Shown: positions 41,319 through 49,978 of the stretch, piece by piece
Layout of the letters: each line of letters opens with the position of its first letter
Numbering within the stretch: position 1 is the stretch's first letter
Assembly (NCBI RefSeq): GCF_014483895.1
Contig: NZ_CP059987.1
Coordinates: 1,612,001-1,676,000 of the forward strand
DNA from: Protaetiibacter sp. SSC-01
Lineage (GTDB): Bacteria; Actinomycetota; Actinomycetes; Actinomycetales; Microbacteriaceae
Length of the DNA: 64,000 bases
Direction: 5' to 3'
Program-made: the position numbers and the translations under genes
The notes under the pieces: generated by a model
What the model was told of the DNA's origin: nothing
The model's database searches: none
What the model saw: only the letters and a program-made list of their open reading frames with translations

Positions 41319-42611
41319 TCAGGCCCCGAACTGCTGCACCCAGTACACGCGGCCCGTGCTCGACGTCGACGAGCAGGCGCCCATCATCGTGTACGTGCCG
41401 TTGAGGATGTTCGCCCGGTGCCCGGAGGAGTTCATCCACCCGTTGACGACGCCGGAGGCGCTCCCGTAGCCGTAGGCGACGTTCTCGGCCCAGGCACGGA
41501 AGCCGCTCGACCAGCCCGAATGGTAGAGGTCGCCGTTGCGGGCCGCGAGCTCGGCCGCGAAGGAGCAGGACCGGCTCGCGAGGGTGCCGTTCCACACGAG
41601 CGCGCCCACGCCGTTGGCGCCGCGATGCGCGTTGGTCTCGGTGAGCACTCCGCGCTGCTCGCTCGCGGAGGTCACGCTGCCGCCACCACCGCCGGCGCCG
41701 CCACCGCCGCCGCCGGCGCGGGGGCTGCCGCCGCGCGCGCGTTTGGCCGCCTCGGCGGCCGCCTGCTCCGCGGCGATCCGCGCGGCCTCGGCGTCGTGGG
41801 CCGCGATCACGGCCGCCGCCGCGGACGCGTAGCCCGCGAACAGCGGCGGCAGCTCGGCGGGCGTCTCCGCGGCGGTCAGCGCCTCGGCGGCCGCGACGGC
41901 CGCGCTTCTGCTGTCACCGGATGCGAGCGTGCGGGCGGCGAGGAGTGCGTCGTTGACGCCTCCGATCGTGCCGGCGAGGTTCGCGAGCGCCTCGCCGAGG
42001 GCACCGTTCACCTCGCCGATCCGCCCCGACTCCTCCTCGAGCTCACCGCGCGACTCCGCGGCGGCCGCTGCGTCCGCGCCGAACCCCTCGGTGAGCTCGC
42101 GAAGCGCCTCGGTCGGCGCGGCCTTGTCGATGGGCGCGGGTGCGGGGAAGGGACGGATGCCGAGCTCGGCATCCGCTCCCGGCGCCTCCGTGCCGAACAG
42201 CTCCGCGAGCGCGAGCGCGAGATCCTCGTGAGCCGCGACCACCGGCGCGACGGCCTCGGCACCGCCCAGCAGGCCGGTGTGAGGGAGCACCTTCGCTGCG
42301 ACGGCGTCGCGCAGCGTTATCGCAGCGTCCGCATCCGCGCCGAGCTCCTCGAGCACGCTGCGCTGCCCCACGACGGCCTCGACGGCGTCGGCACGCGCAT
42401 CCGTCGCGAGAGCGAGAGCCTCGTCATGGGCGCGCTGCTCAGCCCACGCGACGCCTCCCCAGATGCCGCCCGCGGCGACGAGCGTCACGGCGACGGCGAT
42501 GACGACCGCGCCACGACGCCCGATCCGGCCCCGCCGCCGAGCTGTCTGCTCGGCGTCGGCGGCCTCGACCTCGGGCACGGCGTCGAGGACGGCTCCCTGC
42601 TGCTCCCCCAT
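41319..42611 (-). CDS. Membrane-anchored CAP-domain (SCP/PR1) protein
   Basis: 430 residues. A cytoplasmic N-terminus and one membrane helix (about residues 33-56) lead into a long Ala/Glu-rich helical stalk (60-285), a Gly-rich linker (SPRAGGGGGGAGGGGG) and a C-terminal CAP domain with the cavity residues His and Glu in DLYHSG, WAENVAYGYG and SSGHRANILNG. The CAP domain faces outside. Bacterial CAP proteins are secreted, of mostly unknown function, and some bind lipids or sterols. Leaderless start: TAGGGT lies 8 bases before the ATG. The stalk design recurs in the sortase-like protein at 58592. Confidence 0.85.
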   Translation of the reverse strand: MGEQQGAVLDAVPEVEAADAEQTARRRGRIGRRGAVVIAVAVTLVAAGGIWGGVAWAEQRAHDEALALATDARADAVEAVVGQRSVLEELGADADAAITLRDAVAAKVLPHTGLLGGAEAVAPVVAAHEDLALALAELFGTEAPGADAELGIRPFPAPAPIDKAAPTEALRELTEGFGADAAAAAESRGELEEESGRIGEVNGALGEALANLAGTIGGVNDALLAARTLASGDSRSAAVAAAEALTAAETPAELPPLFAGYASAAAAVIAAHDAEAARIAAEQAAAEAAKRARGGSPRAGGGGGGAGGGGGSVTSASEQRGVLTETNAHRGANGVGALVWNGTLASRSCSFAAELAARNGDLYHSGWSSGFRAWAENVAYGYGSASGVVNGWMNSSGHRANILNGTYTMMGACSSTSSTGRVYWVQQFGA

Positions 42612-42997: not shown

Positions 42998-44020
42998 GTG
43001 GCTGAAGCCCCCGGCGGCCTCGGCCGCCGACTGCGGTACCTCGCGAACCGCGCAGCACGACTCAACCCCGCGAACGTCTGGCGGATCGCCGGCGCCGCAC
43101 GCTCCCTCACCCGCAAGCCGCGACTGCTCATCGTCGCCGACATGCTGTGGTGCTCGGTGCGCTACGAGTTCGGCTTCCAGGACTACCTCGACTGGGATGT
43201 CGTCATGCTGACCGCCGCCGAGCGGCGCACGTACATCACGCATCCGAAGTCCAACCACCTCGCGATGACGCTCAACCATCCTGAGCTGCGCCGCATCTTC
43301 GCCGACAAGCTGCGCTTCAACGCGCGCTTCTCCGACTTCATCGGCCGCGACTGGATCGACCTGCGCGAGGCCGACGCGGATGCCGTGCGCGCCTTCCTCG
43401 ACGACCACGGCCGCGCGATGCTCAAGGTGCCCGACAGCCTCTCGGGCAAGGGCATCGAGAAGGTCGAGGCCTCGGCGGTGACGGATGTCGACGCGTTCGT
43501 GGCCGAGGCGATCGCGGAGCGTCAGTTCCTGCTCGAGGGCTACATCGTGCAGCACCCCGAGATGGCATCGCTGTGCCCGACGAGCGTCAACTCGCTGCGC
43601 GTCATCACCTACTTCGACGGTGAGACGCTCCACGTGCTCGCAAGCGTGCTCAAGATGGGCAACGGCGGCGACATCGACAACTTCTCGAACGGCGGCATGT
43701 ACACGATGCTCGACGAGACGGGCACCGCGCACTTCGCGGCCTTCGACGAGAGCGGCACGAGCTACGCGACGCATCCGCTCACCGGCACGTCGATCGTCGG
43801 CTTCCGGGTGCCCCTCTACGACGAGGTCGTGCCGATGCTCGAGCGCGCCGCCCGTGTCGTGCCCGAGGTGCCGTACGTCGGCTGGGACGTCGCCATCACG
43901 CCCGACGGACCCGTCATCATCGAGGGCAACCCGAACTCGGGCGTCTACCAGGCGAAGCCCTCGGTCTCGGGGGTCCGCGAGGGGCTTCTCCCCCGCTACC
44001 GCGCCGCGATCGGCTTCTGA
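42998..44020 (+). CDS. ATP-grasp enzyme of the sugar-transfer-associated family
   Basis: 340 residues, GTG start abutting the upstream stop. The C-terminal two thirds show ATP-grasp features: GRAMLKVPDSLSGKGIEKV (phosphate-binding loop region), LLEGYIVQHPEM, SLRVITYF, DNFSNGGMYT, and the metal-binding end GWDVAITPDGPVIIEGNPN. This family (ATPgrasp_ST) ligates a carboxylate to an amine or sugar-linked acceptor, usually in surface polymer synthesis. The exact substrate is unknown. It converges with the GatD-like gene, overlapping it by 25 bp, so a wall-related role is possible but unproven. Confidence 0.82.
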   Translation: MAEAPGGLGRRLRYLANRAARLNPANVWRIAGAARSLTRKPRLLIVADMLWCSVRYEFGFQDYLDWDVVMLTAAERRTYITHPKSNHLAMTLNHPELRRIFADKLRFNARFSDFIGRDWIDLREADADAVRAFLDDHGRAMLKVPDSLSGKGIEKVEASAVTDVDAFVAEAIAERQFLLEGYIVQHPEMASLCPTSVNSLRVITYFDGETLHVLASVLKMGNGGDIDNFSNGGMYTMLDETGTAHFAAFDESGTSYATHPLTGTSIVGFRVPLYDEVVPMLERAARVVPEVPYVGWDVAITPDGPVIIEGNPNSGVYQAKPSVSGVREGLLPRYRAAIGF

Positions 44021-44766
44021 ACGCGCTCACCGGGATGCCACCGGCGCTCGTCGCGGAACTCGCGTAGGCGCGCCTCGTAGGCGGCGGTCGCGTACTCCTC
44101 ATGGGCGAGCACGGGCTCGGTGTCAGGGTCGAGCCGCTTGAGCAGTGCGCGCGTGAAGTGCGGGTTGACGACGAGCAACGGGCCGATGAGCGAGGTGCCG
44201 ATGAGTCCGCCCATCCGCACGCCCTCGACGGGCGTCGTCGTGTTGCGCCCGATGCCGCGCTCGGCCGTGAGGAACCCCTCGACGCCCGGCGCGACTTCGA
44301 GCATCGAGAACTGCGACTTGTAGCCGACGATCGGCTGCTCGACGGGCAGCTCGGGCACCGCGCCCATGACCTTGCCGCTGTAGCGGCCCATCATCGCGAG
44401 GGTCGACTCGAGCTCGACGAGGCCGAGCCCTTCCACGTCGTAGCCCATGTCGGCGTTGCGGATGCGCGTGCCGAGCACCTCCACGGCGTTGTGCGTGAAG
44501 AGCGTGAGGGCGCCGGATGCGATGCGCGCCTCGAGCGCGTCGCGGTGCGGCCGCAGGCGGTCGATCGCCTTGAGCTGCCCGCGCTCCGTGAGGGGGCCGA
44601 GGTAGAGCAGGTCGACGTCGCGGTCGAGGAACGTGGGGCGCTCGTTGAGGCCCGTGCGCACGACCTCGGCGTCGGGACGGCACTGCGCGAGGTAGGTGAT
44701 GTTGGCGTTGTCGCCGTGGAGGTTCGCGACCTCCGGGAACAGCATCTCGATCGTGAGGCCGCTCAC
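43996..44766 (-). CDS. GatD-like amidotransferase subunit lacking glutaminase residues
   Basis: 256 residues, GTG start overlapping the MurT-like stop by 4 bases. The fold and partner gene identify it as a homologue of GatD, the class I glutamine amidotransferase that supplies ammonia to MurT for amidation of D-Glu in lipid II. The nucleophile motif (TICGGYQ in S. aureus GatD) reads LFTHNAVEV here, with no Cys (Thr91/His92). The catalytic His motif (LHGP) reads LIGP with Ile194. The only Cys in the protein is Cys29, far from the site. It cannot act as a normal glutaminase and may have a structural or substrate-gating role for its partner. Confidence 0.85.
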   Translation of the reverse strand: MSGLTIEMLFPEVANLHGDNANITYLAQCRPDAEVVRTGLNERPTFLDRDVDLLYLGPLTERGQLKAIDRLRPHRDALEARIASGALTLFTHNAVEVLGTRIRNADMGYDVEGLGLVELESTLAMMGRYSGKVMGAVPELPVEQPIVGYKSQFSMLEVAPGVEGFLTAERGIGRNTTTPVEGVRMGGLIGTSLIGPLLVVNPHFTRALLKRLDPDTEPVLAHEEYATAAYEARLREFRDERRWHPGERVQKPIAAR

Positions 44767-46142
44767 GCGCCGCCTCCCGCCCGATCGGCGAGGCGCGCCC
44801 GCAGCCGCTCCTGAACCCGGTTGCCGGTCGTGAGCGCGTTGTGCACGCTGTGGAGGTTGAACACGACGTCGGCGCCGGCGACGTCGATCCGCTCGGCGGG
44901 CTCCGTCTCCGACTCGAGCGTAACGATGCGCGCGGGGTCGACACCCGCGATCGCGAGACGCAGCGCCTGGTCGTAGCGGCGGTTGCCGCCCACGACGAGC
45001 TGCTCGATGCTCTCGTCGGCGAGGTACTCGTAGTCGGCGTCGTAGATCCAGGCCGTGTTCTCGACCTCGTTCTCGCGCTCGCTCCACTCGTCGATCGTCA
45101 TGACGACGGCCTTGCGGCCCGGGAACGACCGCAGGTACTCGAAGGCGCGCGAGCACGCGACGCCCACGAGTCCCTTCGTGAGGAGGCGTACGAGCAGCGC
45201 GTCGCCGATGCGCTCGGACGCGAACCGGGTCGTCGGCGGCGCGAGGGTGTCGAAGGCGCGCACGATGCGGTCGCGCGGCACCTCGAGCACGTCGAGCACC
45301 GCCGCGACGGCGATCTCGTTGTAGACGTTGACGATGTTGTCGTTGACGAGCCGCGCCTCGCGGGCGTCGCCGTCGAGGTCGAGCACGACGCGCTCGCCCG
45401 CGGGGTCGATGTCGCGCGCGCGGTAGGCGGCCTCGGGCGAGCGGAAGCCGCACGCCGGGCAGTGGGCGCGGCCGATGTGGTTGAAGCGCCAGTGGTCCCA
45501 CGCGAGGCGCGTGTCGCACACGGGGCACGTCATGGCGTCGAGCGCGGCGCCCGTCGGGGCGTCGGTGTCGCTCGGCAGGCGATCGACCGCGAAGTGCACG
45601 CGCGGGTTGGCCTCGCCGCCGAGCGACGACGCGATGAGGTCGTCGGCGTTGAGCACGAGCGTCGTCTGCTCGGAGAGCTCCGAGCTGAGGATCCACGCGA
45701 TGTACTCGGGGTGGGCGTTGCGCTTGATGGAGTCGCGCGTGAGGTTGGTGCAGACGAGCACGTCGGGTCGCAGCCCCGGCAGCACGAGGCGCCCCGAGCG
45801 CTCGTCGAGCTCGAACACCCCGACGTCGGCACGCGGCCGGCCGCGCCAGTCGACGGCGGCGATGAGCGCCGCCGCGATGCCCGGCGCGAGGTTCGACCCC
45901 GTTCGGTTGCTCGCGACCGTGAGCCCCTCGCCGAGAAGCGCCTCGGCGAGCAGGTTCGACACGGTCGTCTTGCCGTTCGTGCCCGTCACCGCGATGACGC
46001 GCTTCGGGTGCTGCACGGCGCCCAGGATGCCCGGGTGGATGCGGCGGGCGATCTTGCCGGGCACGTGCGTCCCCTGACGCCCGATGGCCCGCAGCAGGCC
46101 GGCCGCGAGCTTGGCAGCCCAGACGGCCAGCAGCACGCGCAC
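44763..46142 (-). CDS. MurT-like Mur ligase
   Basis: 459 residues. Mur ligase core with the ATP loop VTGTNGKTT (residues 52-60), the MurT-specific zinc ribbon Cys206-Cys209/Cys228-Cys231 (CPVC, CPAC) and a DUF1727-type C-terminal domain (NTAWIYDADYEY at 362-373). Canonical MurT motifs of that last domain (a KNPAG-type loop, NDxxADGxDxSW and the ANYTA-type end) are replaced by TKGLVGVA, IDEWSERENEVENTAW and FNLHSVHNA. It should still activate a carboxylate with ATP, presumably the alpha-carboxyl of D-Glu in the stem peptide. The amine donor is open. GTG start, with AAGGGG overlapping the sigA stop 10 bp upstream, suggests cotranscription with sigA. Confidence 0.85.
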   Translation of the reverse strand: MRVLLAVWAAKLAAGLLRAIGRQGTHVPGKIARRIHPGILGAVQHPKRVIAVTGTNGKTTVSNLLAEALLGEGLTVASNRTGSNLAPGIAAALIAAVDWRGRPRADVGVFELDERSGRLVLPGLRPDVLVCTNLTRDSIKRNAHPEYIAWILSSELSEQTTLVLNADDLIASSLGGEANPRVHFAVDRLPSDTDAPTGAALDAMTCPVCDTRLAWDHWRFNHIGRAHCPACGFRSPEAAYRARDIDPAGERVVLDLDGDAREARLVNDNIVNVYNEIAVAAVLDVLEVPRDRIVRAFDTLAPPTTRFASERIGDALLVRLLTKGLVGVACSRAFEYLRSFPGRKAVVMTIDEWSERENEVENTAWIYDADYEYLADESIEQLVVGGNRRYDQALRLAIAGVDPARIVTLESETEPAERIDVAGADVVFNLHSVHNALTTGNRVQERLRARLADRAGGGA

Positions 46143-46152
46143 GCGGCGCCCC

Positions 46153-47559
46153 TTACTCGAGGTAGTCCCGCAGCGACTGCGAGCGGCTCGGGTGACGCAG
46201 CTTCGCCATCGTCTTCGACTCGATCTGACGGATGCGCTCGCGCGTCACGCCGAAGGTGTCGCCGATCTGGTCGAGCGTCTTCGGCATCCCGTCTCCGAGG
46301 CCGAAGCGCATGCGGATGACGCCCGCCTCGCGCTCCGAGAGCGAGTCGAGGAGCGACTCGAGCTGCTTCTGCAGCATCGTGAAGCCCACGGCGTCGGCCG
46401 GGACGACCGCCTCGGTGTCCTCGATGAGGTCGCCGAACTCGCTGTCGCCGTCCTCGCCGAGCGGGGTGTGCAGCGAGATCGGCTCGCGGCCGTACTTCTG
46501 CACCTCGATGACCTTCTCCGGGGTCATGTCGAGTTCCTTCGACAGCTCCTCGGGGGTGGGCTCGCGGCCCAGGTCCTGCAGCATCTGGCGCTGCACGCGG
46601 GCGAGCTTGTTGATGACCTCGACCATGTGCACGGGGATGCGGATCGTGCGGGCCTGGTCGGCCATCGCGCGCGTGATCGCCTGGCGGATCCACCACGTCG
46701 CGTAGGTCGAGAACTTGAAGCCCTTGGTGTAGTCGAACTTCTCGACGGCGCGGATGAGGCCGAGGTTCCCCTCCTGGATGAGGTCGAGGAACTGCATGCC
46801 ACGGCCCGTGTAGCGCTTCGCGAGCGACACGACGAGGCGGAGGTTGGCGCCCAGCAGGTGGTTCTTGGCGCGCTGGCCGTCGCGCGCGACCCAGGAGAGC
46901 TCGCGACCGAGCTGGCTGCGCTTCTCCTGGTCGGTCATGTGCGAGAGCTTCTCCTCGGCGAAGAGACCGGCCTCGATGCGCATCGCGAGCTCGACCTCCT
47001 GCTCCGCGTTGAGGAGGGCGACCTTTCCGATCTGCTTGAGGTAGTCCTTGACGGGGTCGGCCGTCGCGCCCGTGATGGCGGCGGAGTAGACGGGGACCTC
47101 GTCGTCCTCGTCCGTCATCGACAGACGCAGGGCGCCCGTCGGAAGCGGCTCGTCGCGCGCGGTCGAGACCTCCTCGGTCTCCTCGTCGTCGGACTCCTCC
47201 TCGGAGTCGTCCTTCGCCTCGGGGGTCTCCGGCTCCTCGGCCTCGTCGGCGTCGCCGTCGGCGGCGACCTCCTCGGTCGCCTCCTCGATGTCGCCGTCGA
47301 GCTCGAGCTCGGCGTCGTCCTCGAGCTCGTCGCTCTCGAGCTCCGGGTCCTTGGCCTTCGCCGCGGACGCCTTGCCCTTGGGGGCGGCCTTGGCCGGCGA
47401 CTTCTTCGCGGCGGGCTTGGCGGCAGCCTTCGCGGGCGCCTTGGCGGTGGTCTTCGTGGTGGTCTTGGTCGCCGACTTGGTGGTCTTGGCGGCGGCGGTG
47501 GTCTTCTCGCGGTCGTCCTTGACCGCTTCCTTCGTCGATGTGGAGCGGGGGGTGGCCAT
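46153..47559 (-). CDS. sigA: Primary RNA polymerase sigma factor
   Basis: 468 residues, ATG after AAAGGGG. The N-terminus is a Lys/Ala/Pro-rich tail (about 70 residues) followed by an acidic stretch. Region 1.2 starts at [11 protein letters not shown]. Region 2 contains [20 protein letters not shown] and [16 protein letters not shown], region 3 [13 protein letters not shown], and region 4 [20 protein letters not shown]. It directs transcription of housekeeping genes. The TANNNT -10 sequences of this window are its expected targets. The murT-like and gatD-like genes follow 10 bp downstream. Confidence 0.96.
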
Positions 47560-47691
47560 GCTGACCCCTTTCGCGGGTGGGGAGGTGCGTCTGGGCAGTA
47601 CGTAGACCCGTGTCAAGTCCCCCACGCGATCGAGACGGGCTCTCGCCTGTCTGTCACGCGCGAGACGGGGATTCGACCGGGTCTCGGTTGT

Positions 47692-49066: not shown

Positions 49067-49978
49067 TCAGGGGCGCGGCTCGTCGCGCCGGGTCGCGAGG
49101 AAGCGCTCGAGCTCGGCGGCGATCGTGTCGGCGCTCGGCAGCTCGCCGTCCTCGTCGACGAGGGGCGACGGGAGGGGGTTCTCCTCCATGTAGCTGTCGT
49201 GACGCTCCTCGAGCGTGCGCACGAGGCGCTCGAGCTCCGAGTTGCCCGTCACCTGCTCCTCGACCTTGAGCGTGAACTCGCGGCCCTCCTCGCGCAGCTC
49301 GTCCGTGGGCAGGATGAGCCCCGTCGCGGCGCCGATGCTCTCGAGCGCGGCGACCGCGGCGAGCGGGTACTCGGTGTCGGCGAGGTAGTGCGGCACGAGC
49401 AGCACGAAGCCCGCGGTCGGGTGGCCCGCCTCCTGAAGGCGGTACTCGAGCAGGTGCAGGATGTTGCCCGGCACCTGGGTGCGCGGGCGCCAGATCGAGA
49501 ACGCGTCGATGAGCTCCGTGCGGTTGCCGCTCACCGTCACGCCGATGGGGCGCGTGTGCGGCGTCGGCATCGGGATCGCGTTGATCCACGTCGTGTCGGC
49601 CACGTCGAACCGCTCGATGAGATCGATGACCGCGCGCGTGAACCCCTCCCAGCGGAAGTCGGGCTCGTAGCCGCTCAGCAGGAGGAAGGGCTGGTGGAGC
49701 TCGTCCTCGACGAGCGAGAGCACGAGCCGGGAGGGCTCGTAGGAGGCGAGGTGATCCTCGTCGAAGTACATGACGGGGCGGCGCGCGCGGTAGTCGAGCA
49801 GCGCGTCGTTGTCGAACACCACGAGGTCGCGCACGACGGGCAGTCCGCGCAGCAGCTCCGTGACCTGCGCGACCGCCGAACCGGAGTCGGTGAACCCCGT
49901 GAGACCGGCGACGAGATGCAATCCCGTGGGCACGTCGGAGACGTCTCCGACGACCTCGTAGAGCGGGTTCTCATCCAT
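49067..49978 (-). CDS. PAC2 family protein
   Basis: 303 residues. PAC2 (proteasome assembly chaperone 2-like) fold: GLHLVAGLTGFTDSGSAVAQ, LVVFDNDALLDYRARRP, FLLLSGYEPDFRWEGF and PHTRPIGVTVSGN. The C-terminus is a Glu-rich helix. PAC2 proteins are common in Actinobacteria, but their role is not settled, and no proteasome genes are in this window. Leaderless ATG 7 bases after TAGACT. Confidence 0.9.
   Translation of the reverse strand: MDENPLYEVVGDVSDVPTGLHLVAGLTGFTDSGSAVAQVTELLRGLPVVRDLVVFDNDALLDYRARRPVMYFDEDHLASYEPSRLVLSLVEDELHQPFLLLSGYEPDFRWEGFTRAVIDLIERFDVADTTWINAIPMPTPHTRPIGVTVSGNRTELIDAFSIWRPRTQVPGNILHLLEYRLQEAGHPTAGFVLLVPHYLADTEYPLAAVAALESIGAATGLILPTDELREEGREFTLKVEEQVTGNSELERLVRTLEERHDSYMEENPLPSPLVDEDGELPSADTIAAELERFLATRRDEPRP

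Follow-up and report, generated by a model that had tools for sequence, protein, structure and literature searches.

B-type peptidoglycan, reportedly classified by Schleifer and Kandler in 1972, is cross-linked through the alpha-carboxyl of D-Glu, and the Microbacteriaceae are generally known for B-type walls. Among described ligases, the Mur ligases MurC to MurF activate a carboxyl with ATP and form an amide bond with an amino acid, CofE (2phn) is an amide-bond-forming F420-0:gamma-glutamyl ligase, and D-aspartate ligases of the Aslfm type have the ATP-grasp fold. The system closest to the genes considered here is the lipid II isoglutaminyl synthase MurT-GatD of Staphylococcus aureus (6gs2/7q8e) and Streptococcus pneumoniae (6fqb), which amidates D-Glu with ammonia cut from glutamine. 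Its adjacent genes encode MurT, which has a Mur ligase middle domain, a MurT_C domain and ribbon cysteines, and its partner GatD. MurT is described as likely to condense its substrates in the manner of the Mur ligases (PMC6085368). Searches of the open-access literature (subscription papers lay outside their scope) listed no paper seen to name an enzyme that makes the initial B-type bond. Here we analyzed a murT-gatD-like gene pair in a 64,000-nucleotide stretch of the Microbacteriaceae genome of Protaetiibacter sp. SSC-01 (contig NZ_CP059987.1, positions 1,612,001 to 1,676,000; hereafter the window) and compared it with its relatives.

The window pair shares the gene adjacency, both MurT domains and the ribbon cysteines with the described complexes, and the GatD fold, the ATP residues and R128 with that of S. 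aureus, whose numbering is used throughout. It differs from the S. aureus complex in that Cys94 and His189 of GatD and D349 of MurT are replaced, the oxyanion residue Gly60 is Pro, and changes specific to its own subfamily surround the MurT site. MurC to MurF differ from the window pair in having no GatD partner. We refer to Cys-less pairs of the window type as T1 and to the commoner Cys-less type as T2, besides which there are three odd Cys-less pairs; L numbers denote locus stretches and G numbers denote genomes.

We hypothesize, with a probability of roughly 0.52, that this glutaminase-dead MurT-GatD joins the alpha-carboxyl of D-Glu to an amine not derived from glutamine, most likely the amino acid that begins the B-type bridge. 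MurT would bind ATP and activate a carboxyl, by homology the D-Glu alpha-carboxyl of a peptidoglycan precursor; the attacking amine would no longer be ammonia cut from glutamine and would most likely be Gly or a D-diamino acid; and GatD would persist in a structural role, perhaps helping to hold the bridge amino acid. We infer which acceptor and amine are used and that B-type bridges are involved. Residue loss, the ATP site, selection on both genes and near exclusion with a CofE-like gene can be read from the sequences and are presented below. If the hypothesis is true, it shows an amidation complex turned peptide ligase through the loss of the chemistry of one of its halves.

Residues of the window pair and its relatives

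The two genes and the positions that matter for their function are the following:

44763..46142, minus strand: MurT-like ATP-dependent ligase of the T1 subfamily (Mur ligase middle domain and MurT_C), 459 amino acids (aa); PF08245, 36.6 bits; PF08353, 62.8 bits
43996..44766, minus strand: GatD-like protein of the T1 subfamily with a class I glutamine amidotransferase (GATase) fold, without catalytic Cys and His; 256 aa, GTG start
45963..45983, minus strand: ATP loop GTNGKTT, MurT residues 54 to 60, with S. aureus K59 and T60 kept (from sequence)
45057..45059, minus strand: Asn codon where S. aureus MurT has Asp349, which completes the putative glutaminase triad (from alignment)
44910..45161, minus strand: MurT_C domain, protein residues 328 to 411, present (PF08353 match)
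44491..44493, minus strand: His codon at the nucleophile position of GatD, S. aureus Cys94 (alignment columns)
44185..44187, minus strand: Ile codon at the position of catalytic His189 of GatD (alignment columns)

Both MurT domains score above the Pfam cutoff, which is 25 bits for PF08353, and residues 5 to 427 of the 459 in the window MurT align with S. aureus MurT (7q8e; E = 4e-49), the C-terminal domain included. A preliminary description of the window had held that the motifs of this domain were lost. That was an error: the PF08353 score rules out loss of the domain, in which we find the single-residue changes N316G, P317L and D349N, and the last of these had escaped the preliminary description. 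Its statements that the ATP loop and zinc ribbon are kept agree with the sequence, in which the loop is intact and a CPVC...CPAC ribbon is present, and the 4-bp overlap that it gave for the two open reading frames is confirmed by their coordinates. The window GatD matches S. aureus GatD (5n9m) at an E value of 3e-8 and scores 18.8 bits with PF07685, below the cutoff of 27; its AlphaFold model (pLDDT, 89.5) has a predicted GatD fold (Foldseek against 5n9m, E = 5.7e-16, TM 0.79/0.83). Alignment with 5n9m bears out the reported absence of the Cys nucleophile and of the catalytic His, which are replaced by His and Ile, respectively.

The same replacements recur in the T1 pairs of our Microbacteriaceae sample (the family, order and phylum samples used here are draws made by a sampling tool), with His at Cys94 in 10/10 GatDs, Ile or Leu at His189 in 10/10 and Asn at MurT D349 in 9/10, the window among them. 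The ATP and Mg residues K59, T60, E108 and N267 are retained in all ten T1 MurTs, and K59 and E108 are retained in 38/38 T2 MurTs. Outside the triad, Q135S, D137K, E141H and N316G are fixed in the T1 MurTs (10/10). In S. aureus, C94A, H189A and R128A are reported to kill glutaminase activity, R128 being a residue that binds glutamine (PMC5871853); C94S, C94G and MurT D349N abolish catalysis according to a figure legend in another source, the text of which calls D349N activity "severely reduced" (PMC6113224). Since the triad residues are changed and the ATP residues kept, the ligase half appears to be retained and the ammonia-making half dead by these residues. The window pair thus looks like a MurT-type ligase without glutaminase. 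Judged by its residues, it fails three catalytic features of an isoglutaminyl synthase and should not carry that annotation.

Could glutamine still be the amine donor, with the nucleophile relocated? Retention of R128, which sequesters glutamine, in 10/10 T1 and 70/79 T2 GatDs would suit such ordinary glutamine-dependent amidation. Against this stand the joint change of Cys94, His189 and D349 in T1, the presence of Gly, Ala, Asn, Ser or Thr at the Cys position in T2, and a 15-row alignment in which none of the columns that are invariant, or nearly so, is a Cys; we give this explanation only a very slight chance.

The S. aureus complex with GatD-C94G is reported to amidate with free ammonia at pH 8.5 and to be inactive with ammonia at pH 7.5, and S. 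aureus MurT is inactive without GatD, a need that persists with the Cys removed (PMC3266927, with the C94G values in its Table 2). These data set a precedent for GatD kept only as a partner. They do the same for another reading, in which the Cys-less pair is an ammonia-dependent amidase that still makes D-isoglutamine from free ammonia and, in T2 species, would cap unbridged stems. We consider this amidase somewhat unlikely. The inactivity at pH 7.5 argues against it, and it leaves unexplained the four fixed T1-specific changes, as well as the concentration of Cys loss in Microbacteriaceae and the glutaminase-free CofE-like ligase in the place of the pair, both of which are described below.

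Loss of the zinc ribbon was considered as a mark of T2 and ruled out, as most canonical actinobacterial MurTs also lack the pattern. It occurs in 0/79 T2 MurTs, 7/69 canonical MurTs of other families, 3/16 canonical MurTs of the same family, 8/10 T1 MurTs and 2/3 of the odd pairs.

Lineages and selection

A quick 96-row MurT tree, which has long branches, groups the 38 T2 rows in one clade within the actinobacterial Cys-bearing MurTs and places T1 and the three odd Cys-less pairs apart from T2, near the MurTs of S. aureus and S. pneumoniae. At a minimum, two changes of Cys state are required on this tree, and an approximately unbiased (AU) test, for a group chosen after the tree had been seen, gave a p value of 0.019 against a single Cys-less clade. 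The phylogeny therefore suggests that the Cys was lost in at least two separate lineages.

Ratios of nonsynonymous to synonymous substitution rates (dN/dS) were 0.05 to 0.25 in six T2 GatD comparisons, computed on the trimmed domain, and 0.045 to 0.08 in five T2 MurT comparisons. The window compared with two close relatives gave 0.23 and 0.40 for T1 GatD and 0.19 and 0.23 for T1 MurT. By these ratios, purifying selection acts on both genes. GatD might nonetheless be a regulatory or structural leftover in a complex without a cross-bridge role, such as a scaffold in precursor synthesis, given that a nucleophile-free class I GATase fold can be a pseudoenzyme and that many active-site positions of GatD are changed. 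The selection on both genes and the strict retention of the MurT ATP-site residues speak against such a leftover, which we regard as quite improbable.

Distribution of Cys loss

PF08353 identified 108 MurTs in 104 of 150 Microbacteriaceae genomes. The 108 GatDs adjoining these matches (17 further genomes with a MurT recognized by a broader profile are outside this count) have Cys at the nucleophile position in 16 cases and another residue in 92, namely, Gly in 55, Ala in 16, His in 10, Asn in 5, Ser in 4 and Thr in 2. Elsewhere in the order, Cys is present in 68/68 GatDs of other families; 70 of the 92 MurT loci of these families were read, 2 of which had no GatD in the stretch. Three Microbacteriaceae genomes (G053, G063 and G118) each have one canonical Cys pair and one Cys-less T2 pair; if the two had the same function, one would be superfluous.

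The window MurT is the sole PF08353 match in its own genome and also the only match there at an E value of 1e-20 to the broader MurT profile. A second, canonical murT-gatD pair, for which the preliminary description had recommended a search, is hence absent from the window genome by both searches.

The sigA-PAC2 locus and its CofE-like gene

The following neighbors define the locus:

46153..47625, minus strand: putative primary sigma factor, sigA-like, directly upstream of murT; syntenic anchor (named from motifs)
49067..49978, minus strand: PAC2-family protein; syntenic anchor (putative name)
42998..44020, plus strand: ATP-grasp protein, convergent with gatD (PF14397, 151.9 bits)

The first two names are putative. 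The window pair lies directly downstream of the sigA-like gene, and T1 and T2 pairs mostly occupy this same site, right after sigA and a few kilobases from the PAC2-family gene; in four genomes (G005, G045, G052 and G107), the Cys-less pair is distant from PAC2 or on another contig. In the genomes with only a canonical pair, that pair lies elsewhere than the PAC2/sigA site in 13/13, as compared by eye.

What the site holds was read in named loci, the best 80 of 477 confirmed PAC2-gene matches with their 10-kb flanks; among them, Homoserinibacter and other Microbacteriaceae stand nearest to the window. Among these best 80, MurT is present in 53, a short CofE-like gene (PF01996) in 18, both in none and neither in 9. 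GatD is readable in 52 of the 53 MurT loci and is Cys-less in 52/52, the GatD of L292 lying beyond the contig end. The nine loci with neither gene include eight with a contig end, and the remaining one, L267, has no nearby sigma gene. Separately, two stretches from genomes with neither system (L395 and L396) have the PAC2, sigA and gyrase-type genes with no ligase gene between them.

Across the 150 family genomes, the broader profile found a MurT in 121 and none in 29, the absence being weak in G012, G022, G043 and G139, which are under 91% complete. The CofE-like gene is present in 21/29 MurT-less and 2/121 MurT-bearing genomes (Fisher p = 4e-17), with misses possible because the gene scores low on PF01996. 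Its scores are 25 to 55 bits, at or above the cutoff, in contrast to the 155 to 187 bits of a full CofE-type match elsewhere in the same genomes; a sequence relation to MurT was neither sought nor seen. The modeled protein from L244 (pLDDT, 85) matches Archaeoglobus CofE (2phn; Foldseek E = 9e-10, TM 0.59), so the locus gene of most MurT-less relatives is predicted to share the CofE fold. The presence of a CofE-like amide ligase at the locus of most pair-less relatives is consistent with amide formation at a glutamyl carboxyl.

We propose, tentatively and at somewhat less than even odds, that Microbacteriaceae make the first B-type bond with two interchangeable and unrelated ligases at one locus, both glutaminase-free relatives of enzymes that amidate the D-Glu carboxyl, namely, a MurT-GatD that lost its glutaminase on at least two occasions and the CofE-like enzyme, and that both are D-Glu alpha-carboxyl:amino acid ligases. 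Cys-less MurT-GatD and the CofE-like ligase would then be two concrete candidates for the enzyme of the first B-type bond and, if the proposal is true, what sets B-type peptidoglycan apart.

A replacement Mur ligase was ruled out on 16 of the MurT-less genomes: 14 have five PF08245 matches and no more, G020 has seven and G023 has six, compared with six in 11/11 MurT-bearing genomes. The other five PF08245 matches of the window genome are presumably MurC to MurF and a folate-type ligase.

The ATP-grasp gene occurs in 15/18 CofE-like, 5 T1 and no T2 loci among the best 80 of 477, in 6/10 T1 genomes of the family sample and, beside the pair, in one T2 genome (G018). Mutual exclusion of T2 and the ATP-grasp gene was dropped as the main signal: this gene is present in 20/29 MurT-less and 8/121 MurT-bearing genomes, and the CofE-like gene gives the clearer separation. 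The window ATP-grasp gene resembles the Aslfm-type D-aspartate ligase in its fold and its place beside wall genes, whereas its PF14397 subfamily differs. In two Homoserinibacter loci (L241:14658-15874 and L242:14527-15954), a gene of the alanine racemase family stands beside the CofE-like gene, replacing the ATP-grasp gene.

The ATP-grasp gene beside T1 pairs, in the six genomes and five named loci just mentioned, and the CofE-like genes that adjoin Cys-less pairs in G052, G117 and G541 would suit a different division of labor, in which the bond to D-Glu is the work of the ATP-grasp or of the CofE-like enzyme and the pair adds a second or branch residue or uses another glutamyl carboxyl. This arrangement is, in our judgment, unlikely, as homology places MurT on the alpha-carboxyl of D-Glu and the ATP-grasp gene is missing from all named T2 loci, G018 being a T2 genome that has it.

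Wall types of the holders

A B-type wall is in print for Rhodoluna (PMC4156110) and the B2gamma type for Clavibacter (PMC5882085 and PMC9603630), and a published table gives B types for Glaciihabitans, Frigoribacterium, Cryobacterium, Frondihabitans, Salinibacterium and Lacisediminihabitans (PMC7033078). Named loci of Clavibacter, Glaciihabitans, Frigoribacterium, Cryobacterium and Frondihabitans have Cys-less pairs; Salinibacterium and Lacisediminihabitans are CofE-like genera, with the exception of Salinibacterium soli, which has a T2 pair instead. For the T1 isolates Pseudolysinimonas kribbensis and Schumannella soli, no wall type was found in the open-access literature, and for Homoserinibacter, Microcella, Yonghaparkia and Rhodoglobus no wall paper was found there.

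The preliminary description had proposed testing whether loss of the Cys and His tracks B-type walls. For the Cys, this holds in part, in that 92/108 GatDs of the family and 0/68 of the other families have lost the Cys and several holder genera are of B type; it does not hold for the family genomes, and may not hold for the pairs outside the class, that are taken up next. That the pair opens B-type bridging by adding an amino acid to D-Glu is the reading with the best support, at about even odds, and is better supported for T2 than for the T1 pairs to which that of the window belongs.

Several observations weigh against a bridge-forming ligase. Within the family, the sole pair is a canonical, Cys-bearing one in 13/150 genomes, and 8/150 have neither a pair nor a CofE-like gene, which indicates that not every member needs the system. 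T2 MurTs keep D349 (38/38) and T2 GatDs keep His189 in 45/79 cases, so that, on the residues compared, only the nucleophile is lost for certain in T2. The kept R128 could point to residual glutamine binding. The B-type holders of Cys-less pairs are T2, except for two T1 metagenome-assembled genomes titled Glaciihabitans (L264 and L285). CofE-like genes stand beside Cys-less pairs in G052, G117 and G541, adjoining in the last (L405) a fused Cys-less MurT-GatD; CofE-like enzymes and Cys-less pairs may hence be successive steps and can act together. Finally, ultraperformance liquid chromatography-mass spectrometry of Clavibacter michiganensis, whose sigA locus has a T2 pair, is reported to have detected amidated D-Glu (PMC9603630), a result that favors the ammonia-dependent amidase.

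The phylum sample adds a further point on the same side. Its 58 loci, 28 of which were picked for low scores, include 2 without GatD; among the 56 GatDs read, 45 have the Cys and 11 are Cys-less, with the Cys column for L366 and L373 read in L397 and L403, which cover more of those genomes. All 11 Cys-less pairs lie outside the class, in two genera picked for low scores; ten have T1 motifs, and the eleventh (L370) resembles the odd pairs. Their hosts, which we take to be Coriobacteriia, may have A4-type walls, A4alpha being reported for Atopobium of that class (PMC11382707). If the hosts are indeed Coriobacteriia, Cys loss of the T1 type is not tied to B walls, and the case that the preliminary description had named as contradicting it, the same substitutions in species with A-type walls, would nearly have arisen. 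The window-like Cys-less pairs outside the class are in L366 to L376, L397 to L406 and L410; in L398, L405 and L406, MurT and GatD are in one open frame.

The idea of the pair as a D-Glu-carboxyl ligase for the B-type bridge, which was the central proposal of the preliminary description, is thus supported in part: the CofE-like ligase at the locus argues for it, and the amidated D-Glu of C. michiganensis and the amidation with ammonia by S. aureus C94G argue against it.

CofE-like fusions in other families

Among 297 genomes of the order, MurT (PF08353) is present in 101 and the CofE-like domain in 37, never together (p = 9e-8). Outside the family, where 28 genomes have the CofE-like domain, it forms the C-terminal end of a long protein, the remainder of which, in the three fusions scanned with Pfam, is an asparagine synthetase with a glutaminase domain. 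Cys2 of this glutaminase is kept in 18/28 and lost in 9/28, five of them with a clear Met-Ser motif, and is unread in one (L420). The stand-alone CofE-like gene of Microbacteriaceae, without a glutaminase, is in this respect parallel to the Cys-less GatD. We infer only from the exclusion with MurT that the fusions may act on D-Glu. Glycine on the alpha-carboxyl of D-Glu is reported for Intrasporangium calvum, which has an A-type wall (PMC3035309). The CofE-like fusions of L377 to L390 and L411 to L424 (families f12, f17 and f6) are from genomes without a PF08353 MurT.

Minor observations at the locus

One stretch titled Acidobacteria bacterium (G2_35; L245) has a Microbacteriaceae-type PAC2/sigA/MurT/GatD locus and is probably from a misnamed assembly. 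In the window, gatD and the convergent ATP-grasp gene share 25 bp at their 3' ends (43996-44020), and a CAP-domain protein (PF00188) is encoded at 41319-42611, with the ATP-grasp gene on one side and a gene for a gyrase-type subunit B on the other.

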